DNA of 30,563 nt from Scenedesmus sp. ARA3 (lineage: Eukaryota > Chlorophyta > Chlorophyceae > Sphaeropleales > Scenedesmaceae), in assembly GCA_004335835.1 (NCBI GenBank), contig RWJK01001477.1:1-30563 (forward strand), given 5' to 3'. A model generated the notes under the pieces. It saw only the letters and a program-made list of their open reading frames with translations, searched no databases and was not told where the DNA came from. Below are positions 3,142 to 30,563 of this stretch, one piece after another. How positions within the stretch are numbered: position 1 is the stretch's first letter; the number at the start of each line of letters is the position of its first letter. Position numbers and translations under genes: made by a program.

Positions 3142-6100
3142 TTCTGCTGCACGCCAGTGGAATTTGCCAGAGATTGAGAACAGCCAGTTTGTGCTGCAGC
3201 CGTATACTTTCCAGGGCTCAACAAAGCGGTACAACCAAACAGGTGAGCCATGGTATACCTACGTAGGCCTGCCAAGTACATATTGTAAGCTGATGTTGAG
3301 GGAACTCTGCTGCTGTGTCAAGCAGCTCAAGCGTTATGTGGCCAAGCAGTTTCCTGACAGCTTGAAGTGTTCCGGTGCCACGGACAGGGAACGAGTATCA
3401 CTAGGCACTTCCCATTTCAGCCAGTTTACTGAACATTGATGCCGTCACTTCAAGCCACAGCACTTTTGCCGCATCAACACCATCAATATCTTGCATTATG
3501 CAAATCAGCACGCCGCCTTCTTACGTGCTGCAGGCGGCTCCTGCACCGCCCGCATGCGCTAGTCCAGCACCAGCCAGCCCAAAGTGGCAACGAGAGTGAT
3601 TATTGCTGTTTAAACTAAACACTTCATGCTTCATGTTTTGCGCGCTGCAGGCGGATCCTACACGGCCCGCCTGCGCTGGTTCGGCACCAGCCAGCCCCAA
3701 AACTGGGCCTCTTAACTAGCTACGCGTACCCTTGTTGCTGTATAACAAACACGGCATGCTTCGTGTCTTGCCTGCTGCAGGCGGCTCGTACATGGCCCGC
3801 ATGCGCTGGTCCGGCACCAGCCAGCCCAAACCCGCCACAAGTATCCCCAACACTTTGCTAACCTCCATGCCATGCTTCATGTCTTGTGTGCTCCAGGCGG
3901 CCTGTATGCGGCCGCATGCGCTGGTCTGGCACCAGCCTGCACAAACCAGCCGCAGGTCTCTGCACTGCTGTAGAGGACAACACATGCAATTCGTGTCTTG
4001 CTTGCTGCAGGCGGCTCCTACACCGCACGCATGCGCTGGTCTGGCACCAGCCAGCCCAGTGAGGTGCTGTTTGAGGCGTGGAGCCCTTCTGGGGTCCTGG
4101 TGGCCAGCTGGGCGGCAGAGAGTGAGTTGCCTTGCACAAATGATTTGTGCAGACACCTGATTTGTGTTTTCCACATAGCTGTTGAGGCGTGGAGCCCTTC
4201 CGGGGCCTTGGTGGCCAGCTGGGCAGCAGAGAGTGAGTTGCCTTGGTGCACCAAGCGGTGCAGATGCCTGGTTTGATATGTATGTTGCTGCTTGAGGGCG
4301 CAAGGCCCGGCGGGTGACCTGGTGGCCATTGGCACTCTAGATGACATCAAGATGCAATGTCGCACGTCAAGTAACTGCTCAGATGTGTCGAGTGTGTATT
4401 GGTGTGACACCCGTTGGCACCTGCCAGCCCAGTGAGGTGCTGTTTGAGGCGTGGGGCCCTTCCGGGGCCTTGGTGGCTAGCTGGGCAGCAGAGAGTGAGT
4501 TGCCTTGGTGCACCAAGCGGTGCTTGAATTGTGTTTTAAATGTTGCTGTGTGAGGCGCAAAGCATGGCGGGTGACCTAGTGGCCACTGGCAATCTAGGTG
4601 ACATCTAGATGACATGTGGCACGTCAAGTTGCTGTACAGATGTATTAGATGTGTGTTGGTGTGACACCAGTTGGCACCAGCTAGCCCAGTGAGGTGCTGT
4701 TTGAGGCGTGGAGCCCTTCTGGGGTCCTGGTGGCCAGCTGGGCAGCAGAGAGTGAGTCTTACGTGCAGCTGCCACAAATGCGTTTTGTCAATCACTTCTA
4801 CACGTTCAGTGTATTTCTATGCCTAAGTGATGGTCTGCAAAGGTCCACGGCTGCATCCACTGCCAGCTGGTACTGCGATGCTGAATCTCAGCACATTTAC
4901 TGATTTTGCTGCTGCTGTCCTTCCCTGCCGCAGACGGCACCAACTTTGCACCTTCACTCGAGCGTGTGCACATCAACCACTGGACCTTCAAGCCACAGGG
5001 CATCTCCAACCCGCTGCCTGCTGGCTTCAGCAGCTCGAAATTTCATCTATGCTTGCTGCTGCTGCTGCTTCCTGCTGACCGCAGACGGCACCAACTTTGT
5101 ACCGGCACTCGAGCGTGTGCACGTCAACCACTGGACCTTCAAAATTCAGCCGGCATCCCCGACCCGAGGCCACTGCAACTGAATAACCCTTCTTCTGCTT
5201 TGTGCTGTTGCTGCAGACGGCACCAACTTTGTGCCTTCGCTGGAGCGTGTGCACATCAACCACTGGATCTTCAAGCCACAGGGCATCCACTGCCAGATGC
5301 CTTTGCAACTCGAAAATCCAACCACGCTTGCTGCTGCTGTGTTCTGCTGTTGCTGCAGACGGCACCAACTTTGCACCAGCACTCGAGCGTGTGCACATCC
5401 ACCACTGGATCTTCAAGCCACAGGGCATCCCCGACCCGAGGCCTCTGCAACTGAATAACCATTCTTCTGCTTCCTGCTGTTGCTGCAGACGGCACCAACT
5501 TTGCACCTTCACTGGAGCGTTCACTCGAGCGTGTGCACATCAACCACTGGATCTTCAAGCCACAGGGCATCTCCAACCCGCTGCCTGCCGGTTTTGGCAG
5601 CTCGCTTTTCTCACTGTCCTGCTTCAAGCACTGCCCGCTGGGTGATGCCAGCTGCACGCCGATGGGAGTGATGCCATCCTGCGCAGGTGGCGTTGTGCCG
5701 CCTCCTCCAGTCCCAAGGTGCGAATTGTTTCTGTGTTGCGTGCAGCAGCTAGTCTGCAGGGCGAGCTTTGACAGCAGGCAATGCACAACGCCATGCTGCC
5801 TGAGGTCTCTGCAGCAATGCTTGGGCGTCTTTGCAGTTCAAACTGTAAGCAGCGTACATGTGCGCATTGAGCAGTCTCGTATGCCGCCACTGATGCGTTC
5901 CTGCTGTGCTGCTTTGCCTGCCTGCAATTCCAAACCCACAATATGCAAACCCCCGTCCCGTCCCTCCATTTGTCTGTCTGTCACCGCTCTTGTTTCGACA
6001 GCAACCCAAGCCCCAGCCCAAGCCCCAGCCCCGTCCCTCTCCCAAGTTTCACGCCCACCCTCGCCCTCACCTTCACCACCAACAAAAACAAAGGCACTAA

Positions 6101-6398
6101 GACCTACACCTGCACCGCCAGGCTCACTGTCAAATCCACATCCACCGGCCAAACCCTAAGTGGCGTAAACCTCAACTGGACTTGGTCATCTCGCTTTTCT
6201 GTGGCTAACTCAGGCTTCCCGTATTCTGGGCTTGGCAGTACATCAAGCAGCGGAGTGTTCAGCAGCACAGCTCCCCAGAGCGGTGTCATGTCAGCAGCAA
6301 CGGGTGGATGCACCTTCTCAGTGGACAGCGTTGACCTGGCAGGGTGGCAGCTGGCGCCGGGTGTGCAGCTGCCGTTGAGGGTCTCTCAGGCGTGGTAG
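1235..6398 (+). CDS. secreted GH16-like (concanavalin A-fold) protein with Pro-rich linker and Ig-like domain
   Basis: Proposed exons: 1235-1336, 1385-1493, 1981-2210, 2524-2544 (21-bp micro-exon), 2801-2878, 3179-3242, 4011-4121, 5489-5717, 6002-6398. All junctions are in phase with GT/AG ends, giving about 446 aa. The N terminus is a signal peptide (MTGRLPVMVGCGLVAVLLLL, then ALQPLDAS). Exon 3 carries CWWSRSSGG and GPGPNYFD, and exon 5 carries EIDVIEYSR, which fits the GH16 active-site pattern E-[ILV]-D-x-x-E. Exon 6 carries QFVLQPY. These features match bacterial GH16-like proteins (GPNYF...REIDIEFSRW...QYVVQPY). After residues PPPPVP and a Ser-Pro linker, a C-terminal domain containing TARLTVKSTSTGQTLSGVNL resembles bacterial Ig-like (Big/invasin) domains. 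The expected role is binding or cleavage of cell-wall or extracellular glucans; the substrate is unknown. Exons 7, 8 and 9 are surrounded by partial copies. Exon 8 contains an internal in-frame duplication giving SLERSLER. The weakest junctions are exons 1-2 (a 48-bp intron that could be read through) and the start of exon 6. Confidence 0.62.
2215..2327 (+). repeat. (GCA/GCG)n triplet repeat at intron 5' end
   Basis: An interrupted GCA repeat begins within the donor site GTGAGCAGCAG of intron 3 of the GH16-like gene. In the sense direction it is a CAG repeat directly downstream of the 5' splice site. Confidence 0.9.
3085..3145 (+). repeat. (GCT)n triplet repeat before a 3' splice site
   Basis: GCT/CTG runs with GCC and GTT interruptions sit about 30-90 bp upstream of exon 6 of the GH16-like gene, replacing the pyrimidine tract. 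In the sense direction this is a CTG repeat. Confidence 0.9.
3534..4757 (+). repeat. exon 7 edge-duplication array of the GH16-like gene
   Basis: The intact exon is 4011-4121 (GGSYTARMRWSGTS ... VLVASWAAE). Four copies of its first half, each preceded by an AG (mostly CAG) acceptor, begin at 3534, 3651, 3781 and 3897, spaced 114-130 bp; the first contains an in-frame TAG. Three copies of its second half lie downstream and end in donors (GAGA|GTGAGT) at 4232, 4494 and 4751. Acceptor-side fragments are upstream and donor-side fragments downstream of the whole exon. The copies differ by substitutions and intron length, so this is not a simple assembly stutter. Confidence 0.85.
4934..5600 (+). 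repeat. exon 8 array, five copies
   Basis: Five copies start after CAG acceptors at 4934, 5085, 5217, 5359 and 5489 (spacing 130-151 bp), each opening with acggcaccaactttg and encoding NGTNF-(A/V)PxLERVHxxHW. Only the last runs on through GFGSSLFSLSCFKHC to the donor at 5718. Copies 2 to 4 diverge after KPQG or an equivalent point, and copies 2 and 4 share the tail CCCCGACCCGAGGC. Copy 1 extends to PLPAGFSSS before diverging. All incomplete copies lie upstream of the intact exon. Confidence 0.88.
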
Positions 6399-6823
6399 AG
6401 CTGACAGGTGCACAGGCTGGCGGCAGTACAGCTCCACAGATTGGTGTCATGTCAGCAGCGCTGGGCGGCTGCACGTTCTCAGTGGATGCTGTCAGCCTAC
6501 CCTGGCTGGCAGCTGGCGCCGAGTGTGCAGCTGCTGCTGAGAGTCTCTCAGGCGTGGTAGAGACAGCAATGGCTTGCTGTGGCGGTCTGGTGGCGTTTGA
6601 CGCCATCAGCATGCCTGGCTGGCAGCTGGCGCCGGGTGTGCAGCTGCCGCTGAGGGTCTCTCAGGCGTGGTAGAGACAGCAATGGCTTGTTGTGGCAGTC
6701 TCGTGGGGCCGGGTGTGCAGCTGCCATACCAGGCCATTCAGCTGTTAGCCTGCCTGGCTGGCTGCCAGCTCAAGTTGAGCCGGCTGTGCAGCTGCCGCTG
6801 AAGGTCTCTCAGGCGTGGTAGCG
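6260..6823 (+). repeat. repeated 3' end of the last GH16-like exon
   Basis: The intact exon stops at 6396-6398 (VSQAW then TAG). Further copies of the C-terminal segment end in the same TCTCAGGCGTGGTAG at 6558, 6671 and 6819. The third copy repeats GWQLAPGVQLPLRVSQAW without change, the second is altered (AAGAECAAAAESLSGV in one frame), and the fourth is decayed. These are stop-codon-side fragments lying downstream of the intact exon. Confidence 0.82.
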
Positions 6824-8558
6824 ACAACGCAGGCGCCCTGCAATCCTGAGGCACTTTGTGGCTTGTGGCGCAGCCGGGGCTGCTGAGGCGGTGTGCTGAG
6901 GCAGGCCGTTGGGCAAGGTGGCGCTTCAGGGAAGGATTCCTGCGACTGGCACAGGTTGATCTAGAATGCAAAAGGGAGACAAATCACAAGAATCACGAGA
7001 TGATTACGGGCTAGCTGGTTTGTGTGGCTGGTGTGACCTGCGTGTGCATCATGCGCCTGGCTGGCTGCAGCAGCACCGTTCTGGGCGTTGCGGTGTGATC
7101 TGAGTAGAACAGAACAGCTGGCAGCCCTCATGTGTCATGCTTGTGGCTTGCATGGTTGAGACACTGCCTGCATCAACAGCGGCGAAAGATATACAATACA
7201 CCATGATGGGCGTGCCTCTGTGTGTGTTGTGTGTGGAAGAGCGTGGCAGCGGTTGCTGGCATGACCTGTACGGTGGGCTTGGAGCTGAGGTCATAAGAGG
7301 CTGGCACATGCAGCTTCTTGCGATATGTTTGACGTTGGCGCAATTGATTTATTACGAGCTTGCCGCTTTGTGTGCACCTCCCCCTCCTAAACACTGGCAG
7401 CGGCTTCCATCTCAGGATACACATGAAGATTGCAGCTGTACGCCAGCATGCGGCACGTCTGCAGGGTTGAGGACTACAGTTCGTGGTCAGCTTGGTTGCA
7501 CTTGAGCTTGGAAGCAATCTAGCATGCACAACACCTGCATGCAATACGACACTGTGGATGGCTTTTGATTTCACCAGGAACAGCCAGTTTTGGTGCATTT
7601 CAACATTTACTGATGTGCTACTGGCTCGAGCCAGTAAGAGCTCTCGCCGTGCAGCTGCTTGTGGCAGTCACGTGATCCCACTCTCACGGCTTGACAGTCT
7701 TGGAAGCCACAGACAGCCGCAATGCGGCATTGTGCCGCTTGAGGCTGCCGTCACTTGCAGGGGTTGGGCCTGCATGCTTTTCTCTTCCCACTGCAGGGGT
7801 TGGGCCTGCATGCTTTTCTTTTCCCACTGCACGGGTTGGGCCTGCATGCTTTTCTTTTCCCACTGCAGGGGTTGGGCCTGCATGCTTTTCTTTTTCCACT
7901 GCAGGGGTTGGGCCTGCATGCTTTTATCTTCCCACTGCAAGCAACTTGCTTGTGACACTCGTAAACTGCCTATCAGCGTAACACCTCAGTCACTGGGTCA
8001 TAGATGCGGCATCTTACCACAGCATGGCACTAGCCTGCTGCTTACATGGCGCTGTTGTTTCATACGAATACTTGGAGTCACACTTAGATTGATGCCACTG
8101 CTGCGTTGTGTTACAGTAAAGCATGCTGTATGCTGCCTATGCATGCCAGAGGCCAGCCAGCTGTTGTTTTGGCACTTGAGAATTGTTGCTTTGAAAGGGG
8201 TTGCGGTGTATTGTGCTCCCCTGTGTGCTTCTGCACGTCAACCAAAACAGCCAGAAGCGTCCTGGCTAACCTTGTTTCCTCTGCTTTGTTTGCTGTCTGA
8301 AACGCTGTCTTGAACAGCTGCACTTGCCTGTTGGCTGGGTGCGCTACAGTGTGCCGGAGTTCATATGTGTACCGTGCATCTTCCAAAGCTGCAAGTTGTT
8401 TGCAGCAGTGTACTGCAAATGCAGTACCCTAGGCACATGCCATCTTGCACTTGACCGAGGTTGTTGCAGCGCAGTCTACACGCATGCCATAGCTATGATG
8501 CGAAGCTCACCGCACCGTGGCTATAGCTATGATGCGAAGGTGTTCCTTTGTTGGTGGC
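6824..8558. other. no recognisable gene; contains a minisatellite
   Basis: No conserved protein motif or exon series was recognised on either strand. The first part is probably the 3' region of the GH16-like gene. The 36-bp minisatellite at 7758-7937 and a 17-bp direct repeat (atagctatgatgcgaag, at 8489 and 8523) are the only structure seen. Long open frames here owe their length to the minisatellite, whose unit is a multiple of three. Confidence 0.5.
7758..7937 (+). repeat. 36-bp minisatellite, five units
   Basis: Five tandem 36-bp units (caggggttgggcctgcatgc then ttttcttttcccactg) begin at 7758, 7794, 7830, 7866 and 7902, with one or two substitutions each. The unit is divisible by three, so several frames stay open through it (RGWACMLFFSHC on the plus strand). 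Each unit contains CAG|G and a pyrimidine-rich TTTTCTTTTCCCACTGCAG, so it resembles a repeated 3' splice-site region. Confidence 0.93.
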
Positions 8559-8984: not shown

Positions 8985-9217
8985 CCGTGCAACGCCTAGC
9001 GCCGCACAGGCGTCTGCTTCAAGCAGTGCAGCTTGCTGCTGCGCCTACCAGCAGCACTGCCACCTCCATATGCCCCACCTGCTGCTGCTGCTGCTGCTGG
9101 TGGTGCAGCCGTGCCTCCAATGCCTAGCACGTCCTTTCCAAACTCCTCTTCATGCACTGCCAACGTAGTGTACAAGTGCGCACCGCCGGCAAGGCCACAA
9201 CCTACCATCTGCCACAC
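8985..9217 (-). pseudogene. decayed copy of the 3' end of the HOS1/ELYS-like gene
   Basis: On the minus strand this reads EEEFGKDVLGIGG, an Ala-rich stretch, AGRRSSK and then KQTPVRR with a stop. It is closely similar to the last about 65 codons of the gene ending at 10890 (EEEFGRDVLGIGG ... RRSSKRLKQTPVRR). The copy contains a small insertion (SSKLHCLKQ versus SSKRLKQ) and lacks the upstream domains. It lies downstream of the intact gene, as do the other stop-side fragments in this window, but about 1.9 kb away, with an unrelated open frame in between. Confidence 0.8.
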
Positions 9218-10889: not shown

Positions 10890-13800
10890 CTAGCGCCGCA
10901 CGGGCGTCTGCTTCAACCGCTTGCTGCTGCGCCTGCCAGCAGTACTGCCGCCTGCATACGCTGCCCCACCCGCTGCCGCTGCTGTGGCCGCTGCTGGTGG
11001 TGGTGTTGCTGCTGGTGTTGCTGCTGCAGCCTTGCCTCCAATGCCTAGCACATCCCTCCCAAATTCTTCTTCACTCATTGCAAACAGCCCAGGCGCTTGC
11101 AGGACAGCCCCAGGCGTGCTCATTCCTGCAAAGCCTCCAGGAGTATCTGCTGCCGCTGCTGCTGCACCGCCAAACAAGCTGCCACCTACTCCACCTGATG
11201 CAGCAGCAGCAGCTATGCCGCTGCAGCCGCCAAATGCTGCTGCTGCTGCTGCTGCAGGTGCTGGCGTGCCAAACAGCAGAGGCACAAACTCGCTGCTGCT
11301 GCCGCCTGCTGCCGTACCCTGCTGCTGCAGGCTGCCGTTGCCTGCAAAGCCCTGGGGTTTTGTGCTAGGGTTTTCAAGGGCCACAGAACCTGGGCCAGCT
11401 TCTGCCAGCACCTCACCGCCAAAGAGTGACCCCTGCAGGAGAGCAGCATTGGCACTCCTGACACCCACTGCTGCTGCTGCCGGTGCTGCTGCTGCTGGGC
11501 TTGCCTCCATACCTGCATCCATATCAGTATCTGCTGCAGCATCGCCAGCTGCTGCAGCTGCTGCTGCTGCTGCTAAGCTGCACTGAACGTCCGGCTGTGC
11601 TGCAATCAGCTGAGAAAGGAACACTGCCGGCTCAACGCCCCTCTGCGCCAAAACCACTGTCGGCACACCTGACACGGCTGCAGCTACTCCGCGGCTACTG
11701 TCTGCATGTGCAGCAGCAGCAGCAGCAGCACCAGCCGCAAGTCCAGCAAGGATGGGCGTAGCAGCACCCCCAGCTGCTGCTGTTGCTGTTGCACGCAGCG
11801 CCGGCGGCAGCGCTGCTGCAGCCGCTGACATGAGTGTGTGCAGCTGCCGCTGCAGCAGCGCAGCGCTCGCAGATGTGTCAGCTTTAGCGCCAGGGCTGGC
11901 TTTGTACTCTGCGTATGCTGCCAGAGCTTCCAAGCTGCGGCCCCTCTGCAGGCGGCGACAGCCACACCACACACAGTAGCAGCAGCAGCAGCAGAACACC
12001 ACAGTTAGTGACATGGCGTTGCCTCAGGGTGCACTGATTGAAGGCGGGGGCGACAGCATTCTAGATGGTTATCAGAAAACCCTTGACAAAACTTGGTTTT
12101 TGAGACCTGTAACAGAACGACAGCACAGAGCCCACCTGCAGCAGGTACAGCGGCAGCGCATGGCCCACTGGTTGCCCCGCAGCCATGCCAGCGCAGCAGC
12201 CCTACCCCTGGCCACACACACCTTAAACGCACAAAACACACTAAACCACACACCCTAAACCCACATGCCAGCCCAGCAGCCATACCCCTGGGCACACAAA
12301 CCCTAAACCCTCTTGGCCGTAACTTACCCAGGAGCTGCAGAGCTGCCTGGGTAGTCACTCATTCACTCACTCACTCACTCACTCACAGCCCTACCTGCTC
12401 CTCACTGACGACGATCCCATACACCGCAGCCACAGCATGCCGAAAAGTTAGCTTATCCTCGGCATCAGGTGGAAGAAGCCAGAGCCCAGCCGTACAATTC
12501 TTCACAAAACGACTCTTTGTGAAGATTTGTACCGCAGGACTGGATTCTTCCACCTGAGGCCGAGGACGAGTTGACTTTTCATAGCAGGCGTGGCTACAGC
12601 TGTACACACTTGATGTGTACTCGAACACTTCCTAAGCAAATTACACCCACTTCATGCAACAATAGCAGCACAATACGTGTCTGTGAACATTTGATGTTCA
12701 CGTATATGCAAACAGGCCTTTCAGCAGCAGCAGCAGGCCAGCACCCACCTGCAGCAGGTACAGCGGCAGCACATGCCTTCCTGACTGCCCCGCAGCCAAG
12801 CGGCCCCTGAACCAGCCCAGCAGCGCTGACTCCTCATCAGCATCCAGCATCCACAAGTTCTGGCATGTAGAAGAACAATCTGAAATTCATCGAACAGCTG
12901 ATCACTTCACAAGAAAACAGCAGGACCTTACAAAACAAGCCTTTTCAACTCATACAGAGAGCAGCCGCACTCTTACCTGCAGCAGGTACAGCGGCAGCAC
13001 GTGCCCTCCTGACTGCCCCGCAGCCGTGCGCCCCCTGAAATGTGTCAGCAGCGCTGACTCCTCATCAGCATCCAGCAACCACAAGTCTGGCATGTAGAAG
13101 CACGATGTGAAATGCATCAAACAGCTGGTCACTCCATACGAAAACAGCATGACCTTACAAAACAAGCCCTTTTACGAAATCATACAGAAAGCAGCCGCAC
13201 TCTTACCTGCAGAAGGTACAGCGGCAGCACATCGCCCCCTGACTGCCCCGCAGCCATGCGCCCCCTGAACCAGCCCAGCAGCTGACTGCTCATCAGCATC
13301 CACAAGTCTGGCATGTAGAAGAACAATCTGAAACTCATCGAACAGCTGATCACTTCACAAGAAACCAGCGAACGATACGAAAACGGCCTTGTTTCAAATT
13401 ACAACACAGAAATCAGCCGCACTCGTACCTGCAGCAGGTACAGCGGCAGCACATGCCCTCCTGACTGCCCTGCAGCCATGCGCCCCCTGAACCAGGCCAG
13501 CAGCGCTGACTCCTCATCAGCATCAAGAGGCAGCTGCAGCAGCTGCTGCAGCCGCGACTGCTGCTGCTGCTGCTGCTGGTCGTCTGCTGTTGCCCATGCA
13601 GCCAGCTGCTGCACGAGGGCCCTTACATGGCTGGTGCGCTTGGAAGGATGCAGCTGCAGCATACAGCACACAAAGTGCAGTGAGTGCCAGCATCGTGGCA
13701 GCACACATTCATCAGCCAACTGCGCTTGGCGGGCAGCAGCTGCACGACAGGCCACACACAGCAGACACAGCACGCATGACAGCACAAGCAGTGCACCGGA

Positions 13801-16572
13801 CAGAGGCAAGACTCACAACACAGAGACAGCTCCGTGCAAAAAAACAGCAATGGCATGCATAGACATGCCAAATTTGCACGCCGCGCAACGATTGTGCACT
13901 ACAGCAGCAAAATCACACACGTCACCAATTTGCAGCATATGAACAGCATTCCAATACACACCTGGCTGCAGTGTCTCCGCAGCTCTGAAAAGGCCTCTGC
14001 CAGCAACCCACATCCCAGCTGCACCCTCAGCAGCACCTGAGCCTCACGCAGCGACAGCTGCAGCCCATTGGCACTGCTGCCGCTGCTGCTGCTGGTGGTG
14101 GCGCAGCGTGCGCGCTGCACGGCCAAGGCCGTGGTGGGGCGGCCTGCTGCCAGCAGCGCTTCCACAAACCTGCGCAACAACAAATAAGAGCACATGCAGC
14201 TGCATTCAGCAGCGAGCAGCATCGGAAGCAGTGTGGTGGGGCGGCCTGCTGCCAGCAGCGCTTCCACAAACCTGCGTGGCAGCAATCGGGGTGCACATGC
14301 AATGCAGCAGGTGAAGCACACCGGCAGTTTCACAGGGCAGTAATGGGGCGGCCTGCAGCAAGCAGCGCTTCCACAAACCTGCTCAGTCACAACAGCAGTG
14401 CACATGCAGCAGCAGCAGTCTGCAGCATGCAGCAGCATGCAGCAGCATTTAGCATTCAGCAGCATTGAGAACAGTGTGGTTGGGCGGCCTGCAGCGAGCA
14501 GCGCTTCCAATCAACTGTGTGTCAGCAAAGAAAGGGGACAGGCAGCGGTTGAAAAGAGAGCACAGTTATCATGCTGCACGTTGTTGCTGATGTCACTGGG
14601 CCAGATGAGATAAGAGGGAGCTCCATCTTGCCAAACACCACTTTGGCCGAACCACGGCAGCTGCAATATCACGAAGCAACCAGGGGACTGGGGCAGCAGG
14701 GGCTGATAACCCAGCGGCAGATACATCATGCGTGGCAATACAGTGGCTCTCCTCCTCCAAACTGCCCAGCTCAAACAAGTACCCTCACTGCACCCTGCAT
14801 GAACATCACCTGAAAGGTGTGCTTGGGCATGCCACAGCACCCAGCAGGTTGCATGCCTCGTCAAGCGCCGCACTGCTGCTGCTGCTGCTGCTGCTGCTGC
14901 AGCCTTGCTGCTGCTGCTGCAGGGCGCAGTCCATGAGGTAGTGGCACTGCCACTGCTGCACTAGTGTGAGAGGCAGCTGAAAGCCCTGCAGGATGCAGGA
15001 CAGTGAAAGAAAAATGATGATATCTATTGGAGTCCTGCAACGTTTTGGATAAGCTTGTTGATCGTGCATGCGCCGCAAGCAGGCCAACCACATCTGCTTG
15101 CCCCACCTTATAATGCAATGCGGTCAGCGACCTACAACATCCCAACAGATGAGCATCAGCGAGTGCAGCACGCCCATGCCAGCACATACAAACAATCTTG
15201 CACAGGGTTTCCAGCTACTGCCCTTTCACCCTGCTGCAATCAGTGAGCATACCACCAACCCCCCTCCACCTCACGTCATGTCTGCTGCCACTCACATGTG
15301 CAAAGGCCACTGCGCTGGCCAGCCAGCCGCGACCCAGCAGATACATTCTCTCTGGCCCCTCTACATCAATCAATGTGCATTCAGATCCTTCTCCACCATG
15401 AACCCTTGCTTGCTGCCACTCACGTGTGCAAAGGCCACTGCGCTGGCCAGCCAGCCGCCATCCAGCAGATAGTACAGCAGCAGCGCCAGCTTAGCACGCC
15501 AGGCAGCAGCACCACAGCCGCCACTCATAAACAAGCCCTCCACACAGCCCACCACATCCGGGTAAGGATATGCTAGCTGCCGCTGCCCCTCCGATGTAAC
15601 AAGTAACTGATCTGCCAGATCATCCAGGAACAGACGCTGACGTGGCGCGGCCGATCGCTTTCCTGCAAGCGACGCCTGCCAGGCGGGCAGCGAGTCGTGC
15701 GCGGGGCAGGGCTTGCAGGAAAGTCCTGCAAGCTGGCTGCCGCCGGCTTGCAGGAAACCGCTGCTGCTGGCTGAGCGGGAGATGAGGGAGGGCTGGCCTG
15801 GCCGCTGCTGCTGCTGCTGCTCCAGCCAGCCGAGGACTTGCGTGGTCTGCTGCAGCAGCTGCAGGGTGCTGAGAAGCTCCTGTGCACTGCGGCTGTTGGG
15901 CAAGGGATTCACAAGCACGCACAGGTGAAGTTGTGTGTCAGGACAGTGTGCGGCAGGATCAGCAGCGGTGCAATACGACCTGCGGTTGAAGCAGAGCATG
16001 GGACAGCAGCCGGCTTGATGTTGCTCCAAGTAAAAAATGGTTGTGGCAGCTGCTGGTGGCGGGAACTATCATGCTAGGCGCTTATCACGCTGTAGCCGTA
16101 GTACAGTACAGTACAGTAGTTTATCTCACCTGCTGGTGCTGCCAGGTGGCAGTGTGGACTGCAGAGCCCCAGCCACGGACAGCAGCGTCTTGGTGGCATG
16201 AGCGAGCTCTATGATGCTGTCTGGAGACGCACCAGACTGAAAGAGGCCCAGCACTCGCTTATGCAGCTCGCTGGCTGTTGCTGTGCACCAGCCCAGCACA
16301 GCAGCGGGCTGCAGCAGCTGCCACTCCTCCGGATCAGCGCTGCTGAAGTCCTTATCGTTGCAAACGATCGCCACGTAATCGCAGATGAACCAGCCGAGGT
16401 TGGCTTCGAAGATGGCTGTGAGCAGGCCGTAGAACTGCTGCTGCAGGTCGCCATCGAGCAGTGCCTGCAGGCCGAACCTCTGAGCGAGCACTCCGATGAA
16501 TGATCTGACGGATTCAGATTTTAGACTTGTTAAAGGCGAGTCCACCAACGCCTGCTGCAAGCGCAGGGCCAT
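10890..16572 (-). CDS. HOS1/ELYS-like nuclear pore protein
   Basis: Exons in gene order: 16572-16130, 15886-15424, 14985-14810, 14169-13962, 13653-13429, 11945-10890; every junction closes in phase, giving about 856 aa. Exon 1 has GWFICDYVAIVCNDKDFSSA and WCTATASELHKR, like plant HOS1 (ICxYVxxVC...SSDP...DWCKR). Exon 2 has LLLYYLLDGG, exon 3 HYLMDCA ... DEACNLL, exon 4 VEALLAAGRPTTALAVQRA and VQLGCGLLAEAFSELRRH, and exon 5 LPLDADEESALL and LPLYLLQ. This order matches the helical ELYS domain of HOS1, the plant nuclear-pore protein related to animal ELYS. The last exon is a long Ala-rich region with FG-type motifs (SLFGGE, LLFGTP, SLFGGA) and a basic end (RRSSKRLKQTPVRR), fitting a nuclear pore or chromatin-contacting role. 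No RING finger, present at the N terminus of plant HOS1, was found up to the neighbouring gene. The ATG at 16572 follows an in-frame TAG, but an upstream exon ending at a CAG just before it is possible. Exons 2, 4 and 5 carry partial copies. Confidence 0.65.
12184..12390. repeat. 80-bp duplication, CCCTAAA motifs and (TCAC)n-tailed dispersed repeat
   Basis: catgccagc-[gc]cagcagcc-[ac]-tacccctgg occurs at 12184 and 12264 (period 80). Plant-type telomere-like ccctaaaccc occurs at 12253 and 12301. From about 12307 the sequence taacttacccaggagctgca-gagctgcctgggtagtcactca, followed by a TCAC microsatellite, is shared with 27328-27398 in another gene's intron. The core ACCCAGG ... CCTGGGT is an inverted repeat. 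Confidence 0.75.
12417..12607. repeat. about 190-bp imperfect foldback (long hairpin)
   Basis: The two halves are near reverse complements around a centre at about 12511. Left-arm blocks aaaagtt, tcctcggcatcaggtggaag, cgtacaa and tcttcacaaa are mirrored by tttgtgaaga, ttgtacc, cttccacctgaggccgagga and acttttc in the right arm. Outer parts (tacaccgcagccac versus gtggctacagctgta) also pair, with gaps. Arms are roughly 90 nt with a very short loop. It sits in the last intron of the HOS1/ELYS-like gene. It is either a MITE-like foldback element or a long-hairpin small-RNA precursor. Confidence 0.75.
14220..14513 (-). repeat. acceptor-side copies of exon 4 of the HOS1/ELYS-like gene
   Basis: The intact exon begins at 14169 (acceptor GCGCAG, then FVEALLAAGRPTT). 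Copies of its first about 45 bp with flanking intron begin at 14271, 14378 and about 14513, spaced 102, 107 and about 135 bp. The first two keep a perfect CAG acceptor; the most distal is altered at the splice site. All lie upstream of the intact exon in gene direction. Their distal ends stop within PTT, so each copy spans only the splice junction. Confidence 0.88.
14420..14466 (+). repeat. (GCAGCAT)n-like repeat
   Basis: A short run of gcagcat units (gcagcatgcagcagcatgca, then gcagcattt) lies between two partial exon copies in an intron of the HOS1/ELYS-like gene. Confidence 0.7.
15285..15345 (-). repeat. donor-side copy of exon 2 of the HOS1/ELYS-like gene
   Basis: The segment gccactcacatgtgcaaagg-ccactgcgctggccagccag repeats the 3' end of exon 2 and its donor (GCACAC|GTGAGT) found at 15415-15475. 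It encodes GWLASAVAFAH on the minus strand. It lies downstream of the intact exon and differs by a few substitutions. Confidence 0.85.
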
Positions 16573-19212: not shown

Positions 19213-19267
19213 GTTGAGCGCTGCACCACCCAGCAGCTGGCTGGCGAGGCTTTGCTGCTGCTACTGC
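19213..19267 (-). repeat. acceptor-side copy of pentapeptide-gene lumenal-signal exon
   Basis: It repeats the acceptor and first about 45 bp of the exon at 18990-19148 (QQSLASQLLGGA). In the copy, the first codon after CAG is TAG. It lies upstream of the intact exon. Confidence 0.82.
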
Positions 19268-20084
19268 AGTGAGTGTGAGATTACGCAGCATGAATATGTG
19301 GGCTGGGAGTGTGCTGTGCATGCAGAAGCACGGCAGCGGCCTGCGGCACCAGATACTGCTGGTGCAGTATCCTGCTGGTGTATCCCGCTGCGGACCGACA
19401 AAAGAACCATATGTATGTCTACATGCCCGGCTGTCAGATGTATGTCTACATGCCCGGCTGTCAGATGTTCAAAGTAGATCTTGACACCCTTTGTGGCAGC
19501 ACGCTGTAGCGAGCCACTGACACAGCAGGTGTCAGCACAGCGCTGGAGTGCTGGCCCAGCCTGGCAGGAACCCACCTGTGCATGTGCCCTGCATACTACA
19601 CGCGCTGTTGCTCCTGCAAATGTTATTCAGAGTGCTTGTAAAGTCAGCACGGTCCAAAGCGATGACGAGGGAGCTGCTGCTGTGTGTGGTGTGTGGCCAT
19701 GCTGCTGCTGACGCAGTGACGGAACGGCTGGCGAATTAGGTCAAGGGGCGGTAAGAGCCGCACCTGATGCAGCACAAGGACGTGCTACTGCATGGCGCTG
19801 AGTTGCCTGCAAGCGAAACGAAGCACATCAGCTTCGATACCCCTGGAAGCGAGATCGCCAGCTCAGCTGCATGAACACTGCCTGGCTATCTGCACTGATT
19901 AAATGAATAAAATATGTTACAAACGCACCAATGTGGGGCACGGCCTGATGCTGGTGAAAGCCATCGTGTGTACACTCAGCAGCACAGACAGCAGAGGCAG
20001 GACACAATATCAAGCAAGTATGCACACTACTCGGGTCAAAGTGCAATCAACAATATGATCTAGTTGCGATAACAGCCTCATCTG
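19268..20084. other. no recognisable exon; 27-bp tandem duplication
   Basis: The transit-peptide exon of the pentapeptide gene should be here but was not identified with confidence. A minus-strand ATG with good context (cagcatggcc) lies at about 19700. A perfect 27-bp tandem duplication (atgtatgtctacatgcccgg, then ctgtcag) occupies 19411-19464. Confidence 0.4.
19411..19464 (+). repeat. 27-bp perfect tandem duplication
   Basis: Two identical 27-bp units, 19411-19437 and 19438-19464. No divergence is visible, so the duplication is recent. Confidence 0.95.
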
Positions 20085-24781: not shown

Positions 24782-27700
24782 ATGGCGCAGTTTATCAGTA
24801 CACAGAAGCGGCAAGGCTATGCCATCATCAGCATTGCAAAGGAGCCAGTCAACAGCTTTGACACTGCCATGTGGCAGGCGCTGCATGCGGCGCTGCAAGC
24901 AGTGGAGACAGACAGCAGCATGCGCGGCGTGATCATCACCAGCGGCCTGCAGCGAGACATCTTCACAGGTAAGAAGTGCGGCAAGTGCAGCAAGCACGCG
25001 CGCATGTGGTTGTCTTGCAGGAAAGGTGGGCTGTGGAGCATCTGTTTTGTTGCTAGGTGCAGCTGTTGGTCGTTAGCTTCATTTGCAGGTTGGCGCCAGC
25101 CCACAGCAGCAGCAGCAGCAGCAGCAGGAGCCTCCTGAATCCCGCAGCATGCGCGTGTGCTGTACAGCCGGCCGTTGTGGTTGCATTACTGCTGATGAGT
25201 GACCACAACTCATCTCGTCTGTCGTCTACCCCACGCCGCACTCACAATCGCACAGCAATGCACCGTGCCCCACGGCTACTGGCTGTACCTTTCTTCTTCT
25301 GCTGCTGCTGCTGCTGCTGCTGCCACTATTATCACAGCCGGCAACGATCTCAAAGAGCTGTATGCGCCCCTCACCAGTTCACAGCACTACGCCACTTTCT
25401 GGGAGGCGCAGAGCCGCTGCCTGGTGGGCACATCTGAGACCTGCTGCTGCTGCTGCTTGCTTATCTCTCCGCAGCCGGCAATGACCTGAACGAGCTCTAC
25501 GCCCCGCTAACGAGCGCGCAGCAGTACGCCACCTTCTGGGAGGCGCAGAGCCGCTGCCTCGTACACACATTTGAGCCTGCTGCTGCTGCTGCTGCTGCTT
25601 GCTTATCTCTCCGCAGCCGGCAATGACCTGAACGAGCTCTACGCCCCGCTAACGAGCGCGCAGCAGTACGCCACTTTCTGGGAGGCGCAGAGCCGCTGCC
25701 TCGTACACACATTTGAGCCTGCTGCTGCTGCTACTGCTGCTGCTTGCTTGCTTATCCCTCCGCAGCCGGCAATGATTTGAAGAAGCTGTACGCGCCCCTC
25801 ACCAATGCGCAGCAGTACGCCACCTTCTGGGAGACGCAGAGCCGCTGCCGTGTCAACACATCTCATATTTGGTCTTATATGTCTGAGCCTGCTGCTGCTG
25901 CTGCTGCCACCACCGCAGCCGGCAATGACCTCAAGGAGCTGTACGCGCCATTAACAAGCGCGCAGCAGTACGCCACCTTCTGGGAGGCGCAGAGCCGCTG
26001 CCTGGTGGGCACATCTGAGACCTGCTGCTGCTGCTGCTGCTGCGCGCTTATCTCTTGCAGTTGGAAACGACCTGAAGGAGCTCTATGCCCCGCTGACAAG
26101 CGCGCAGCGATGCGGTGAATCAGCGCCACTAGCCGCACCCAATGCCTGCTGCCGTTGCTGCCGCCGCCGCTGCTGCTGCTACAGCCGGCAATGACCTGAA
26201 GGAGCTGTACGCGCCCCTCACCAGTGCACAGCAGTACGCCACTTTCTGGGAGGCGCAGAGCCGCTGCCTGGTGGGCATCCACAGCAGCAGGCTGGCCACA
26301 GCAGCAGCCATCCGAGGCGCATGCCCTGCTGGCGGCTGTGCGATCTCGCTGTGCTGCGACATGCGGCTCATGACGGCCGGTGCTGGCGGTGCTATTGGGC
26401 TGAATGAGGTGGCGCTGGGCATACCTGTGCCGAAGTACTGGGCGGGCGTGATGGTGCAGGTGCGTTCTGGGTGGGTTGATGGGTTTACTTTGGCGATGGG
26501 CTGTGTTGTTCAATGCATAATGTGGGTAGCCTCACTGCCTTGTTGCAGTAGTGTTTTGGCTGCGTTTTGCGGCGGCTGTGCGATCTCGCTGTGCTGTGAT
26601 GTGCGGCTCATGACGGCTGGTGCCGGGGGCGCCTTTGGGCTGAATGAGGTGGCGCTGGGCATACCCGTGCCCAAGTACTGGGCAGGCGTGATGGTGCAGA
26701 TGGGTGCCAGGTTGGAGTTTTGGACGTGGGGTAGCGTGCGTTTGATGTGCGTTTGCACACTTTGCTTTGTGCCGAATGCCCTTGCGGCAGCAAGTTTGTC
26801 GGCTGTGCAACCTCACTGTGCTGCGACGTGCGGCTGTTGACGGCTGGTGCTGGGGGTGCCATTGGCCTGAATGAGGTGGCGCTGGGCATCCCTGTGCCCA
26901 AGTACTGGGCGGGCGTTATGGTGCAGGTGCGCTGATGCAATCTGCATCGAGCAACGTGTGTGGCAGCGCAGTCGGTTGCTGGCGGGTGGGTAACTGCTGG
27001 CGCCACTGTATTCATGTGAGCATCTGCCGCCTCATTCTCGAAGATGCTATGCCCTTTTCCTGGTAGCAGTTGTGCTTTGGCGGCGGGCGTGTGGCTTTCT
27101 CATCTGCTGCAATTCTTCCCCACACATCCTGCGCTGCAACACCACCAACCTGCGTACTGGCACAAGACTAGCACAGCCGAACTCGAACCCTGCAAAGAAA
27201 CGACAGCACGTCAAACCAGACCACCGCAAAAGATCAGCGCACGCAAGCGATACGCCCCGCTTGTGCCCTAGGGCGCAAGTGGACGGGTAGAGGGTGTGGA
27301 GCCCAGGGGTGCCGCCCCTGGCCACACACACCCTCTTAGCCTTAACTTACCCAGGAGCTGCAGAGCTGCCTGGGTAGTCACTCACTCACTCACTCACTCC
27401 ACCAACCTGCAGGTGATTGGGCATGCGACTGCTGAGCAGCCGCTGCTGTCATGCCGCATAGAGCCCCCACAACAAGCACTGCTGCATGTTTTCAAAGTTG
27501 CGCGCCCACATACCCTGTGCTGCTGCTGCTGCTGCTGCTGCTGCACTGCCTGCAGGTGATCGGCCATGCAGCTGCTGAGCGGCTGCTGCTGAGCGGCAGC
27601 ATGGTGCCCCCCAAAGCTGCGCTGCAGTTGGGGTTGGTGGATGAGCTGGTGGATGATAAGGCGCAGCTGCTGCCACGCGCAGAGGTAAGCATTTCAACAA

Positions 27701-28533
27701 GACTACATGTGTTGCATGGAGCAGGACTAGGGGCTGTCTTTGATGCAGCAGCAGGAGGCGAATTGCGCATACAGCACATGTGCTCGCTCATGAGAGCATC
27801 ACTGGAGTGTGGCAGATGCCATAGGATCCCTGGAGCTGCGAGGATGCTGGCAGGGCAGACAGAGCAAGCATTGCTCTGGTAAGCCTGGTAGGTTTAACTG
27901 TGTGGGTTTTGCAAGCGACTTCCCTGCTCATCGTTTGCCTAGACACATGCGTTTTGCAACTGCTGCTGCTTGCAGGAACTCATGCAGCAGGTGGTGAAGC
28001 TGCCCGGCAGCGCCAGGGCAGCCACCAAAGCAGGCCTCTAAATTCAACGCCTGCCTGAACACGAATGTCCTGCAACTGCTGCTGCTTGCAGGAAGTCATG
28101 CAGCAGGCAGTGACGCTGCCAGGCGGCGCTAGGGCAGCCACCAAGGCAGGCTGTTGGAACTCAACGCCTGCCTGAACAAATGCCCTGCAACTGCTGGTGC
28201 TTGCAAGAAACCATGCAGCAGGTTGTGCTGCATCTTTAGGGTCGTCGAGCGTTTGTGAACATGCATGCCTGCGCACTGACATGCCCTAATTGCTTGCGCT
28301 TGCAGGAACTCATGCAGCAGGCGGTGAAGCTTCCAGGTGGTGCCAGGGCAGCCACCAAAGCAGGCCTGAGAGGCGACTTTGACGAGGCCTGGCTGCAGTA
28401 TGCACTCACATGGGAGGCTGGGCCGCGGGGCTTTGCACGCATCACAGACCCCAACACAGTGGCGTCTGTGGGTGCGGCGATCCAACGGCTGTCTAAGGGC
28501 GGCGGCAACAAGCAGCCTCAGTCGAAGCTGTGA
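24782..28533 (+). CDS. ECI1: ECI1-type delta3,delta2-enoyl-CoA isomerase, peroxisomal (SKL)
   Basis: Functional exons: 24782-24968, 26185-26459, 27556-27684, 28306-28533; phases close, giving 272 aa. The protein belongs to the crotonase superfamily and is closest in motifs to animal ECI1: AGNDLKELYAP with YATFWEAQSR, IRGACPAGGCAISLCCD (animal NGACPAGGC), IGLNEVALGI with the catalytic glutamate, and VIGHAAAERLLLSG with ALQLGLVDELV. It should convert 3-enoyl-CoA to 2-trans-enoyl-CoA during beta-oxidation of unsaturated fatty acids. The last residues, QPQSKL, form a perfect PTS1 peroxisomal signal, and there is no N-terminal transit peptide, which fits algal beta-oxidation in peroxisomes. The start ATG (acagcaATGGCG) is the first in frame. 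Exon 2 has six extra acceptor-side copies upstream and two donor-side copies downstream; exons 3 and 4 have one and three extra acceptor-side copies. Which copies are used in mRNA is inferred from completeness and phase. Confidence 0.85.
25299..25323 (+). repeat. (CTG)n before a decoy acceptor
   Basis: Pure CTG run 14 bp before the first copy of isomerase exon 2. Similar CTG runs precede copies 2, 3, 4, 5 and 7. Confidence 0.93.
25338..26290 (+). repeat. isomerase exon 2 array: seven acceptor-side copies
   Basis: Copies start after AG acceptors at 25338, 25475, 25617, 25766, 25919, 26061 and 26185 (spacing 124-153 bp), each encoding AGNDLxxLYAPLTxxxxYATFW or, in copy 6, a truncated form. Only the last continues into the rest of the exon. 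Copies 2 and 3 are almost identical over exon and intron, while copies 1, 4 and 6 are more diverged. The acceptor needs one carried base, but the possible donors after RCL leave phase 0. Chaining one copy to the next would read CCG GCA ATG ACC TGA and stop, so early copies would act as poison exons. Confidence 0.93.
26331..26926 (+). repeat. isomerase exon 2 donor-side array: three copies
   Basis: The intact 3' part ends at 26459 (GVMVQ|GTGCGT). Two further copies of the about 130-bp GGCAISLCCDMRLMTAGAGG to WAGVMVQ segment end at 26699 and 26926. In the first the donor is changed (CAG|ATGGGT); in the second it is intact (CAG|GTGCGC). Neither copy has a clear acceptor. Both keep the catalytic LNEVALGIPVP. 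They lie downstream of the intact exon. Confidence 0.92.
27303..27398. repeat. dispersed repeat with (TCAC)n tail, second copy
   Basis: This begins with a hairpin (CCAGGGG, loop, CCCCTGG at 27303-27321), then ggccacacacacc, taacttacccaggagctgca-gagctgcctgggtagtcactca and a TCAC microsatellite. The last part is shared almost base for base with 12307-12386, in the same orientation on the plus strand. It lies in the third intron of the isomerase gene. Confidence 0.78.
27413..27470 (+). repeat. acceptor-side copy of isomerase exon 3
   Basis: CCTGCAG then VIGHATAEQPLLS, matching VIGHAAAERLLLS of the intact exon at 27556. It decays after about 40 bp and lies 143 bp upstream. Confidence 0.87.
27519..27544 (+). 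repeat. (GCT)n before the acceptor of isomerase exon 3
   Basis: Triplet run, CTG in the sense direction, ending 12 bp before the exon at 27556. Confidence 0.93.
27976..28380 (+). repeat. isomerase exon 4 acceptor-side array: four copies
   Basis: Copies begin at 27976, 28092, about 28206 and 28306 (spacing 116, 115, about 100 bp), each with ttgca[g/a] then gaa-xTCATGCAGCAGG. The first two are ELMQQVVKLPGSARAATKAG and a close relative; the third has lost the acceptor (TTGCAA) and quickly diverges. The last, complete copy carries the stop and SKL. All incomplete copies are upstream. Confidence 0.92.
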
Positions 28534-28643
28534 TGGGCGCTGGGATATATGCATGTGGCAGCTTGCTTGCGTGAGAGCAGCAGTTGCAGCAGTAGTGAAG
28601 GGTGTCTCTGGTTTTGGGGGAGCTCGTCTGTCAGTAGATAGGT

Positions 28644-28648
28644 TGTAA
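28644..28648 (+). terminator. polyadenylation signal TGTAA of the isomerase gene
   Basis: TGTAA, 111 bp after the stop codon, in the usual chlorophyte form and at a plausible distance. Confidence 0.45.
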
Positions 28649-28704
28649 TGCCGCCGCATAGGACTTTCAACTGTCCAGTGCAAGTTGCTACTAGCGTGGT
28701 CCTC

Positions 28705-29027
28705 AACGCAGTATACTCTCTCTGTCCATTTTTTCACAAGCTTGCACTTATAGACTCCTTTATTGGGGCGGCTAACACTGAGTGTTGGTCGGGTGTGTGC
28801 GGCATGCAATTGAGCTGTAGCACACCAAGGGGGTGTGGGGGTTCAACTCCCCCGCTTANNNTTTTTGGTCCGGGCGCTGGGCACCTCCTGTATAGGGTGT
28901 TGTGACGTGTTCTGCTGGTGAGGCATTGCCTCCCGCTCCCGGCAGTTGGGCTTGCCCAGTTGCGCTGTGGTAGCGAGCCAGTAGGATTCCGTCCCCCCTG
29001 GCAACAACAAAAAAAACGCAGTATACT
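28705..29027 (+). mobile_element. SINE-like retroposon with 12-bp target-site duplication
   Basis: The 12-bp repeat acgcagtatact occurs at 28706-28717 and 29016-29027. The enclosed about 298 bp ends in CAACAACAAAAAAAA, an A-rich tail directly before the second repeat. Inside, 28837-28853 forms a perfect T-arm-like hairpin (GGGGG, loop TTCAACT, CCCCC) containing GGTTCAACTCC, a good RNA polymerase III B box. There is no clear A box at the right spacing and no open frame, so it is a non-autonomous element, probably tRNA-derived. Three Ns at 28859-28861 lie just after the B box. A stub with the same 3' end is at 8569-8587. Confidence 0.65.
28859..28861. other. three undetermined bases
   Basis: NNN within the SINE-like element, directly after the B-box hairpin. 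It may mark an assembly join or a polymorphic position. Confidence 0.95.
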
Positions 29028-29422
29028 TTATGTGCCTGTGCTGTAGCAGCTCGGCAAAGCATATGCGCTGCTCAGGCTGGTCCAGGCTCAGCAGCAGTGG
29101 TCTCCGCTGGCTGTCCTGATTCGTAAAAAGTGATCCACAACATGATGCCGAGCAGCTCCAACAGGCAGTCACCCTACCGACGCCAGGCAGTCATGTTCAA
29201 CATCAGTGATGATCATCGCTGTGGAGGCAGGTGGTGATGGCGCAGCGTGCTCATTGTGCCACTGTGCTACGCCACTGCCACGACAGTCTGAGCTGCTGTG
29301 CCTGCAAATTGCTGCATGCCTCTGCTGCAGCCCTCTTTAATGTGGCATCGTCTTACTGGCAGTTCTGCGCTACTGTTGCACCAGCACTTGTGCAAGCAAG
29401 CCACAGCTGTGCGGCAGCAGGC

Positions 29423-30472
29423 ATGGACTTGCCTCTGCTCGACCACATAGCCCTGGTGCCACAGGACGCATCATACGCCGCTATGGTGATCCGTGCAGCC
29501 CTCGTGTAAGTATGCGTGACTCGCCTTCACATTGTATGCTGGCGGTTGCAAGCTCCGGAGCTCGAGCCAGGTTCAGCCTGAGGATATACCCGAATCCGAG
29601 TAACAGCAGTGCTGAGCAGGCTGGAGTCGTGAAAACAGTAACAAGGTATATTAGTAATGCTGAAATGAGAATTGACTCGACATTGCGAAGTATCAAGGAT
29701 TCGTCAACATCAAGCGGGAAGACCTGCTCCCGCCAAAAGGCAGGTGCTGCTGCGAAAGCGCAATGTATTGCATGTGACACGCACGGACAAGAGACTAGCG
29801 GGATAGTCGCAGCAGCGAAGGTTGAAACGTTATCAATGGGTCTTCTGTCAGCAGCAGCGCTGATTCTCCATTTTCATTGCACATGGCTACTTGGCAGCTG
29901 CATGCACAGCTGAAGCATACCCCCAGTAACATTGTGTGCTTTAGGGCAAAGCTGCAAAGCTGACTGTGCCACTCCGAAGTTGAAGCAATGCTGATGTGGC
30001 AGCTTGCCACTAGTGGCAGCCAGGCGCGCCTGCTGAGCTTCCGCGCAAGTTTCTTTATAAGAGTCAAGTCTGCTGAACTTCTACAACTTCACCACTGTAG
30101 CAGCAAGTCCTCTACAGTCAACAAAATCAACTATTGTAAAACATGTATGGTGTGATACTGCTACTGCAGGTCAGCAACAGCATGCAAACGTCTCTGGAAG
30201 GCCGATGTCTGGCAGATGCAAGCATCTCAAGGAAGCTGCTGGAAGAGGAAATGCTGTGGGTGAGTGGCATGTTGTGTGGTGTGGGGTGGTGAGCGGCACT
30301 TGCTCCCTGCTGTGTTGCACAGGAGAGTGGCGCAACTGCCCCCCCTGTGCAGCAGCTTGAGTAGCGAAGCCAAGTCGTGTGGTGTGGGGTGGTGGTGTGT
30401 GCGGCACCTGCTCCCTGCTGTGTTGCGCAGGAGAGTGGCGAATCTTGCCCCCCTGTGCAGCAGCTTGAGTAG
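29423..30472 (+). CDS. 3' part of an unidentified gene
   Basis: Exon 29423-29503 (or to 29505) reads MDLPLLDHIALVPQDASYAA then MVIRAAL before GTGTAAGT. Exon 30170-30259 reads NSMQTSLEGRCLADASISRK then LLEEEMLW before GTGAGT. The last exon, 30323-30364, reads ESGATAPPVQQLE and TAG after TTGCACAG. The join between the last two exons is in phase. The family is not recognised; the Leu/Glu-rich helix LLEEEM suggests a soluble alpha-helical protein. It is not clear whether the ATG at 29423 is the true start, since the exon could open at the CAG just before it. The last exon is repeated downstream. Confidence 0.4.
29510..30165. other. intron of the unidentified gene; no feature recognised
   Basis: A 660-bp intron. 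Its first half (about 29535-29830) has fewer CAG/CTG triplets than the rest of the window and an open plus-strand frame (RYISNAEMRIDSTLRSIKDS), but no family was recognised. Confidence 0.35.
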
Positions 30473-30563
30473 CGAAGCCAAGTCGTGCGCAGGGGTGTGC
30501 GGCACTTGCTCCTTGCTGTGTTGCACAGGAGAGTGGCGCAACTGCCCCCCTGTGCAGCAGCTT
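30293..30563 (+). repeat. terminal-exon array, three units (98-108 bp)
   Basis: Units begin at 30293, 30401 and 30499 with gcggcac-[ct]-tgctcc and include a TTGC[AG]CAG acceptor and the whole short last exon. Unit 2 reads ESGESCPPVQQLE then stop. Unit 3 lacks one C in the C-run, so its frame shifts, and it is cut by the window end. The array probably continues to the right. Confidence 0.9.

Follow-up and report, generated by a model that had tools for sequence, protein, structure and literature searches.

Our analysis of a 30,563-nucleotide stretch of DNA from Scenedesmus sp. ARA3 (positions 1 to 30563 of contig RWJK01001477.1, referred to here as the window; the assembly, GCA_004335835.1, comprises 87.3 Mb in 1567 contigs) confirmed that exons are accompanied by partial copies of their own edges, an observation that is real and extends beyond the window. 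The copies are local direct duplicates that span splice junctions, their similarity to the working exon is centered on the exon part, and they are under partial constraint. Such preservation, rather than decay, is not predicted by a simple view of stray duplication. We tentatively attribute it, with somewhat less than even confidence, to recurrent junction-spanning duplication, after which copies exchange sequence with the working exon or collapse into it, a process in which damaged copies would be weeded out indirectly.

The enoyl-CoA isomerase (ECI) gene of the window (24782-28533) encodes a product 97% identical to a Tetradesmus obliquus protein. The chaperonin subunit gene CCT5 (locus L032) matches its T. 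obliquus counterpart at 91 to 100% identity across the main exon matches, with the exception of exon 10, where the match extends into copies. These identities point to a Tetradesmus-like green alga as the host.

Occurrence and polarity of the copies

Self-comparison of the window returned many local direct duplicates, nearly all of them at exon edges, with 46 direct and no inverted pairs within 3 kb. The search covered both flanks of exons or exon hits, 72 in all and divided into three sets, with a low-complexity filter or an equivalent test applied in the similarity searches. Set 1 held 32 exons of six genes: 12 in the window, 10 of the 11 modeled exons of CCT5, and 10 of CCT1. Set 2 comprised 21 profile hits in three genes (two tRNA synthetases and CCT8), and set 3 comprised 19 profile hits in six tRNA-synt_2 genes that were chosen by family regardless of copies; in both, edges are the ends of profile hits and not exact exon ends. 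Sets 1 and 2 are not blind samples, as the window exons were chosen because BLAST self-comparison had placed arrays nearby, and CCT1, CCT5, CCT8, and the two synthetases belong to families whose earlier searches had hinted at copies.

At least one partial copy was found for 28 of the 32 exons of set 1 (11 of the 12 from the window); none passed the threshold for ECI exon 3, CCT5 exons 5 and 11, or CCT1 exon 1. The 85 copies of this set comprise 41 upstream, acceptor-side copies; 38 downstream, donor- or stop-side copies, one of which (pentapeptide-repeat exon G, at 75% identity) may instead be a sister exon from the repeat; and 6 that reach neither edge (4 upstream and 2 downstream), with none on the contrary side. 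Set 2 gave 29 copies at 14 of its 21 hits (13 acceptor side, 12 donor or stop side, and 4 at neither edge), and set 3 gave 11 copies at 5 of its 19 hits in three genes (6 acceptor side, 4 donor or stop side, and 1 at neither edge); in the other three tRNA-synt_2 genes, the both-flank search found none. In two tRNA-synt_2 genes (L037 and L038), the family matches lie inside long, apparently intron-poor open frames of 715 and 482 amino acids that are free of partial copies.

Across all sets, 125 partial copies were recovered, of which all 114 that reach an edge show the expected polarity; the remaining 11 reach no edge, and none is contrary. The original observation of a polarity without exception thus holds as a count and loses its weight as evidence, since geometry forces the side. 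After a tandem duplication of a segment with one junction, the first unit breaks off within the exon and only the distal unit continues into the remainder; an acceptor fragment must therefore lie upstream, and by the mirror geometry, donor and stop fragments come to lie downstream. The side rule only restates a tandem process and provides no additional evidence for it, and it speaks against a random insertion of exon pieces. Chance similarity and simple repeats were ruled out as a source of the matches, with complexity filtering on and not one of the 125 copies contrary in both-sided searches.

A genome sample was drawn at regular contig numbers (20 loci, 182.8 readable kb, exons not annotated). 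Local direct arrays were present in 15 loci, amounting to 59 arrays with minimal-spacing quartiles of 114, 127, and 174 bp. There are 138 direct pairs against a single inverted one, which exceeds what chance would give, and the mismatches are more 3-periodic than shuffled ones (105 blocks, z 4.9). The local direct duplication across splice junctions that had been claimed is borne out on both strands and in housekeeping genes, namely, those for chaperonin CCT subunits, aminoacyl-tRNA synthetases, and ECI.

At least one copy is present in 20 of the 22 introns of ECI, CCT5, and CCT1; the phenomenon is thus pervasive in these three modeled genes, as proposed, but not universal, given the three tRNA-synt_2 genes without copies. 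Copy arrays make up 51% of intron length in the same three genes, and the mean intron falls from 825 to 400 bp without them, in a tally whose offsets were transcribed by hand from the splice-site table (one from the self-comparison). The 88 local duplicate pairs in these genes include 50 that span a junction, 34 that are nearly all exon, and 4 classed as noncoding only. Since conserved exon parts are more easily detected, exons and 68 copies were masked in a control; of the intron similarity hits that remained, 31 touch the edge of an exon or a copy and 1 lies away from any edge. The proposed enrichment at exon edges is real and not a consequence of geometry; under uniform placement, intron-only cases would, by estimate and not by computation, outnumber edge cases. 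Constraint on the splice signals beside the edges could contribute part of this enrichment.

Partial constraint on the copies

Over 1852 codons, set 1 copies show 323.5 synonymous and 158.5 nonsynonymous differences from their working exons, and these 482 differences fall on codon positions 1, 2, and 3 in the numbers 89, 69, and 324. The neutral expectation for the nonsynonymous share, taken from the mutation spectrum of the aligned intron parts, is 0.73; for a neutral copy compared with a fully constrained exon it is 0.575, or 0.536 with CpG transitions raised 6-fold. The observed fraction is 0.33 (bootstrap range, 0.27 to 0.39 over 39 arrays, using 83 of the 85 pairs after two without differences were dropped) and 0.32 with one copy per array; in the three further genes of set 2, it is 0.356.

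Exon parts carry 0.052 indels per substitution and intron parts carry 0.287, with 21 indels observed in exon parts versus about 89 expected if neutral, an approximately 4-fold depletion. Splice sites are kept as well. The AG is retained in 40 of the 44 edge-reaching acceptor copies, and the GT is retained in 29 of the 33 donor copies as scored, or in 32 of 33 after correction of three boundaries that had been placed 1 to 2 bases off; 9 further copies that stop short of the edge were excluded from this tally. The corrected retention of 72 of 77 is above the neutral expectation (P 0.0002 to 0.009), and the uncorrected 69 of 77 is so more weakly (P 0.005 to 0.10). Raw divergence is 0.209 at synonymous sites and 0.161 in introns, and the two are correlated (rho 0.49, P 0.003).

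Codons, frame, and splice sites are on average preserved in the copies. The changes private to them in set 1 number 97 synonymous and 95 nonsynonymous, compared with 37 and 3 private to the working exon, and the copies thus stand between a neutral sequence and an exon. Simple neutral decay is ruled out by the codon, indel, and flank tests, and the earlier picture of the copies as plain decoys undergoing such decay does not survive.

Origin and preservation of the copies

In 15 of 22 multicopy arrays, but not in the other 7, the inner ends of the copies are no more than 10 bases apart (hand count); these ends lie near mid-exon. The median copy covers 0.43 of exon length (standard deviation, 0.10) on the acceptor side of 19 exons and 0.50 (standard deviation, 0.11) on the donor side of 15, and copy size correlates with exon length (rho 0.70 for acceptors and 0.56 for donors), according to a breakpoint table that was typed by hand and excludes exons without a known full length. 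Acceptor- and donor-side copies do not overlap in 8 of the 12 exons that have both, where a uniform model predicts 3.1 (P 0.003). At the inner ends, inspection by eye revealed no second splice site that recurs consistently. Nested insertion of whole exons, which would give complementary halves, was ruled out by unequal upstream and downstream copy numbers and by the many one-sided exons; recursive splicing at AG/GT was ruled out by the many exons without a GT start.

Intron homology among the 77 edge-reaching copies extends over at least 25 bases in 44, over 10 to 24 bases in 12, and over fewer than 10 bases in 21 (42, 11, and 24 copies, respectively, with shorter flanks). Exon divergence is 6% or less in 29 copies, and in 10 of these, intron similarity ends no more than 10 bases from the splice site. 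The CCT5 exon 4 donor copy shares 73 of 76 bases with its exon and has intron similarity not above that of shuffles, and the CCT1 exon 7 donor copy is identical at 66 of 66 bases beside an unrelated intron flank. Same-side copies are mostly nearer to the working exon than to each other (sister pairs, 6 of 105); over 74 triples, the mean distance is 0.071 to the exon and 0.093 between copies, which are mutually closest in 11. For ECI exon 2, the flanks group the copies together in two of three comparisons and the exon parts do not. Such high exon identity and closeness of copy to exon point to exon-limited exchange or to repeated birth from the working exon.

Copies had been described as radiating outward from the intact exon; we found no outward age gradient in 29 arrays: mean divergence is 0.264 for the nearest copy and 0.257 for the farthest, and the farther copy is more diverged in 38 comparisons, less diverged in 49, and tied in 7. 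The missing gradient rules out a series of births at the working exon that displace older copies outward, and it favors exchange over repeated birth. Gene conversion alone cannot, by algebra and not by simulation, push the nonsynonymous fraction under the neutral-copy value, and selection is therefore still required.

At most of the exon edges examined in this nuclear genome, repeated local duplication has copied segments of about 90 to 260 bp that straddle one splice junction. Copying across an acceptor has left an intron tail and the first part of the exon upstream of the working exon, and copying across a donor or a stop has left the last exon part with its donor or stop downstream. In the scenario that we tentatively prefer, the copies would remain in recombinational contact with the working exon, and a deletion between copy and exon, or a conversion, would make the copy part of the working exon. 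Array collapse would thereby expose damage in the copy, and chromosomes with damaged copies would lose the gene. Effective selection on a copy would approximate the collapse rate and would matter if this exceeds the reciprocal of the population size; in a large population, such second-order selection could partially preserve the copies. Indirect selection through collapse predicts an intermediate constraint, as observed. The repeated gain and collapse of units, which we infer, would also account for the long introns, and the half-exon size limit might, speculatively, be set by poor recognition of half exons under exon definition.

Several points weigh against this scenario. No recombination event was directly observed, and collapse would have to be sufficiently common in this alga. 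The mechanism alone explains neither the edge enrichment (31 to 1) nor the mid-exon breakpoints. The changes private to copies, taken alone, lie only mildly under the lowest neutral value (P 0.015), and the nonsynonymous fraction in set 3 (tRNA-synt_2) is higher, at 33.8 of 72 or 0.47, one of the included hits being perhaps no exon. Some copies are damaged, with 19 indels (15 in set 1, 13 of them frameshifting, and 4 in set 2) and 4 stops in sets 1 and 2 together, 2 of which belong to set 1. The tree discordance, finally, is thin: the exon parts support the same grouping in 3 of the 11 flank-sister cases and flatly contradict it in 4.

It is also conceivable, if unlikely, that half-copies of the flanking exons are functional and are retained in most introns by selection, either for RNA processing or as templates from which conversion repairs the exon on site; if this were true, coding information would be partly redundant inside introns. 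Direct use at the RNA level, in which the copies are conserved as alternative terminal or cassette exons or as decoys that regulate the removal or retention of the neighboring intron, we consider rather unlikely. It would fit the average retention of splice sites, frame, and codons, the enrichment at exon edges, and a copy size of about half an exon, as though a fixed amount were wanted. Furthermore, the T. obliquus CCT5 database entry (P0241) includes 15 extra residues, NMVRVEQYAMRAFAD, compared with a Raphidocelis protein; these resemble the copy at L032 7966, which a gene caller seems to have read as an exon. However, the inner ends show, by eye, no regular second splice site, and several units break the frame; the copies are also clearly less constrained than the working exons, as the private changes show. 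In addition, 10 of 11 aligned related ECI proteins lack such an insertion, and the one exception, P0016, carries 9 inserted residues that do not resemble a copy.

The version originally proposed, in which plain junction-spanning tandem duplications give rise to copies that are neutral thereafter, now appears improbable. It would account for the direct orientation, for the common internal breakpoints in 15 of 22 arrays, for intron homology that extends over 25 bases or more in 44 of the 77 copies reaching an edge, and for some frameshifts and stops. Nevertheless, it does not yield 94 to 100% exon identity beside unrelated intron flanks, it predicts a nonsynonymous fraction of at least 0.54 to 0.575 and not 0.33, and both the indel depletion and the clustering of breakpoints at mid-exon speak against it.

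Least probable, in our view, is an assembly artifact in which diverged haplotypes or strains were joined end to end, the copies being real exon ends of other genomes. This would explain the constraint most simply and would account for the synonymous differences, the kept splice sites, the diverged introns, the polarity, and the near-complementary halves, and at least one T. obliquus assembly, that of UTEX 393, rests on short reads alone (PMC5255914). We set it aside because the copies hold 95 private nonsynonymous changes, compared with 3 in the working exon, and because diverged copies often have common internal breakpoints. Moreover, copy numbers at the two ends of CCT5 exon 10 are unequal (0 acceptor and 6 donor), donor-side copies cluster beside the upstream exon and acceptor-side copies beside the downstream exon, and the assembly holds no second ECI locus beyond one 33% hit, ECI being the only gene for which a second locus was sought. 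False duplication would entail copies constrained like the working exon and a second haplotype elsewhere, and neither was found. The earlier judgment that assembly stutter is unlikely is upheld by the inner ends common to diverged copies (15 of 22), by the lack of another ECI locus, and by nonsynonymous changes and frameshifts in the copies that the working exon lacks. The T. obliquus CCT5 entry also speaks against an artifact but is weak as independent proof, since it may derive from the same or a near strain.

Arrays along the window and known systems

Besides ECI, the window contains a plus-strand gene (about 1.2 to 6.4 kb) without a family name, a pentapeptide-repeat gene, a gene with a weak ELYS-like profile match under the cutoff, and one with a weak acetyltransferase match. 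Arrays had been reported for five of six genes. They are clear in four (the plus-strand, ELYS-like, pentapeptide-repeat, and ECI genes) and undecided in one, where a self-comparison array at 30268-30563, with 103- to 108-bp spacing and no strand given, runs off the contig end and is not assigned to any exon; in the acetyltransferase-like gene (from about 21.0 kb), BLAST self-comparison found none.

In the plus-strand gene, intact exon A (4011-4121), seen in both self-comparison and both-flank search, has acceptor-side copies that start upstream at about 3534, 3651, 3781, and 3896 and donor-side copies that end downstream at about 4232, 4494, and 4751. Acceptor-side copies of intact exon B (5489-5717) start upstream at about 4934, 5085, 5217, and 5359; the exon itself holds a 12-bp in-frame duplication at 5510-5533 (SLER repeated) that the upstream copies lack. 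The last exon with its stop codon (6002-6398) is followed by stop-side copies at 6423-6562, 6617-6675, and 6753-6821.

On the minus strand, self-comparison placed a stop-side copy of the 3' end of reading frame 10890-12023 at 8990-9164, 1.9 kb downstream of the frame. The donor half of an intact ELYS-like exon (13429-13527) has donor-side copies downstream at 13205-13300, 12975-13075, 12747-12847, and 12131-12188, and the acceptor half of another (14124-14169) has acceptor-side copies upstream within 14233-14285, 14333-14415, and 14480-14528, two of these three being also recovered in the both-flank search. A donor half at 15411-15471 has one donor-side copy downstream (15283-15343), and the acceptor half of a pentapeptide-repeat exon (17969-18028) has an acceptor-side copy upstream (18105-18199); for two further acceptor halves, at 18493-18528 and 19105-19148, copies lie upstream within 18640-18690 and 19220-19275, respectively.

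Intact exon 2 of the plus-strand ECI gene (26185-26459), found by self-comparison and both-flank search, has acceptor-side copies starting upstream at about 25338, 25475, 25617, 25766, 25919, and 26061 and donor-side copies downstream at 26571-26699 and 26797-26927; the both-flank search recovered five of the six and both of the two. For intact exon 3 (27556-27684), an acceptor-side copy upstream (27406-27468, 79%) was seen by BLAST only and falls under the both-flank threshold. Intact exon 4, which includes the stop (28306-28533), has acceptor-side copies starting upstream at about 27976 and 28092, both also recovered in the both-flank search, and a short one near 28206.

Other repeats are present in the window. 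An ordinary minisatellite (36-bp unit, about 5 copies, 95% match) occupies 7756-7939, outside any modeled exon, and a 92-bp repeat, 87% identical and 15 kb apart, occurs at 12285-12376 and 27315-27399 as the sole direct repeat more than 3 kb apart in the BLAST self-comparison. CAG/CTG runs are very common (2214-2327, 3086-3150, 25299-25323, and many more), often directly upstream of acceptors, and may aid slippage. Three N at 28859-28861 suggest a small assembly join near the 3' end of the contig.

We found no description of exon-edge partial copies in PMC7291106, PMC5552973, or PMC5255914, or in parts of PMC7590803, PMC5966456, and PMC7955037; as the literature searched consisted partly of titles and abstract openings, we make no firm claim that they are unpublished. 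A lengthening of introns by exon-edge copies would fit a table in the part of PMC5966456 consulted, where the mean intron is 462 bp in T. obliquus versus 230 to 302 bp in three other Sphaeropleales. Should long reads bear out our counts, such copies would largely determine how long introns are in an algal group that is widely grown. The choice of splice sites would then face plausible false sites at most junctions, and annotation must be on guard, as the T. obliquus CCT5 entry appears to include such a copy. The system also makes it possible to ask whether recombination can indirectly preserve copies that take part in it and have no function of their own.

Tandem genomic duplication can create introns or splice sites, as in the AGGT duplication model, which the arrays resemble in combining local direct duplication with splice signals and protein-coding sequence. 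Here, however, the segments straddle existing borders, and many units accumulate that are partly conserved; the copies sit in introns beside working-exon junctions, and no new intron made by duplication within an exon was seen. Tandem exon duplication with mutually exclusive exons shares the direct exon repeats inside introns and the coding-type conservation, whereas the copies described here, which are about half an exon with one evident splice site and stop mid-exon without consistent inner splice signals, cannot act as whole exons. Introner elements, known from green algae and other protists, likewise change the intron content of algal genes en masse, but both sequences tested here stay near their exon: in a genome search with one exon and one spacer, ECI exon 2 matches its own contig only and the spacer is unique. 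A search for relatives in viral contigs gave three pattern matches, none of them a relative. Coding or intronic minisatellites share the regular units, some nearly identical, as in CCT5 exon 10 (L032 7688-8370), which has six donor-side copies in steps of about 107 bp; unlike minisatellites, the copies are tied to splice junctions, have a polarity, and change in a codon-related pattern. Decoy exons of regulated intron retention, finally, also place nonproductive splice sites beside real ones. Those are complete small exons in particular genes, whereas here half exons are found in most introns examined.

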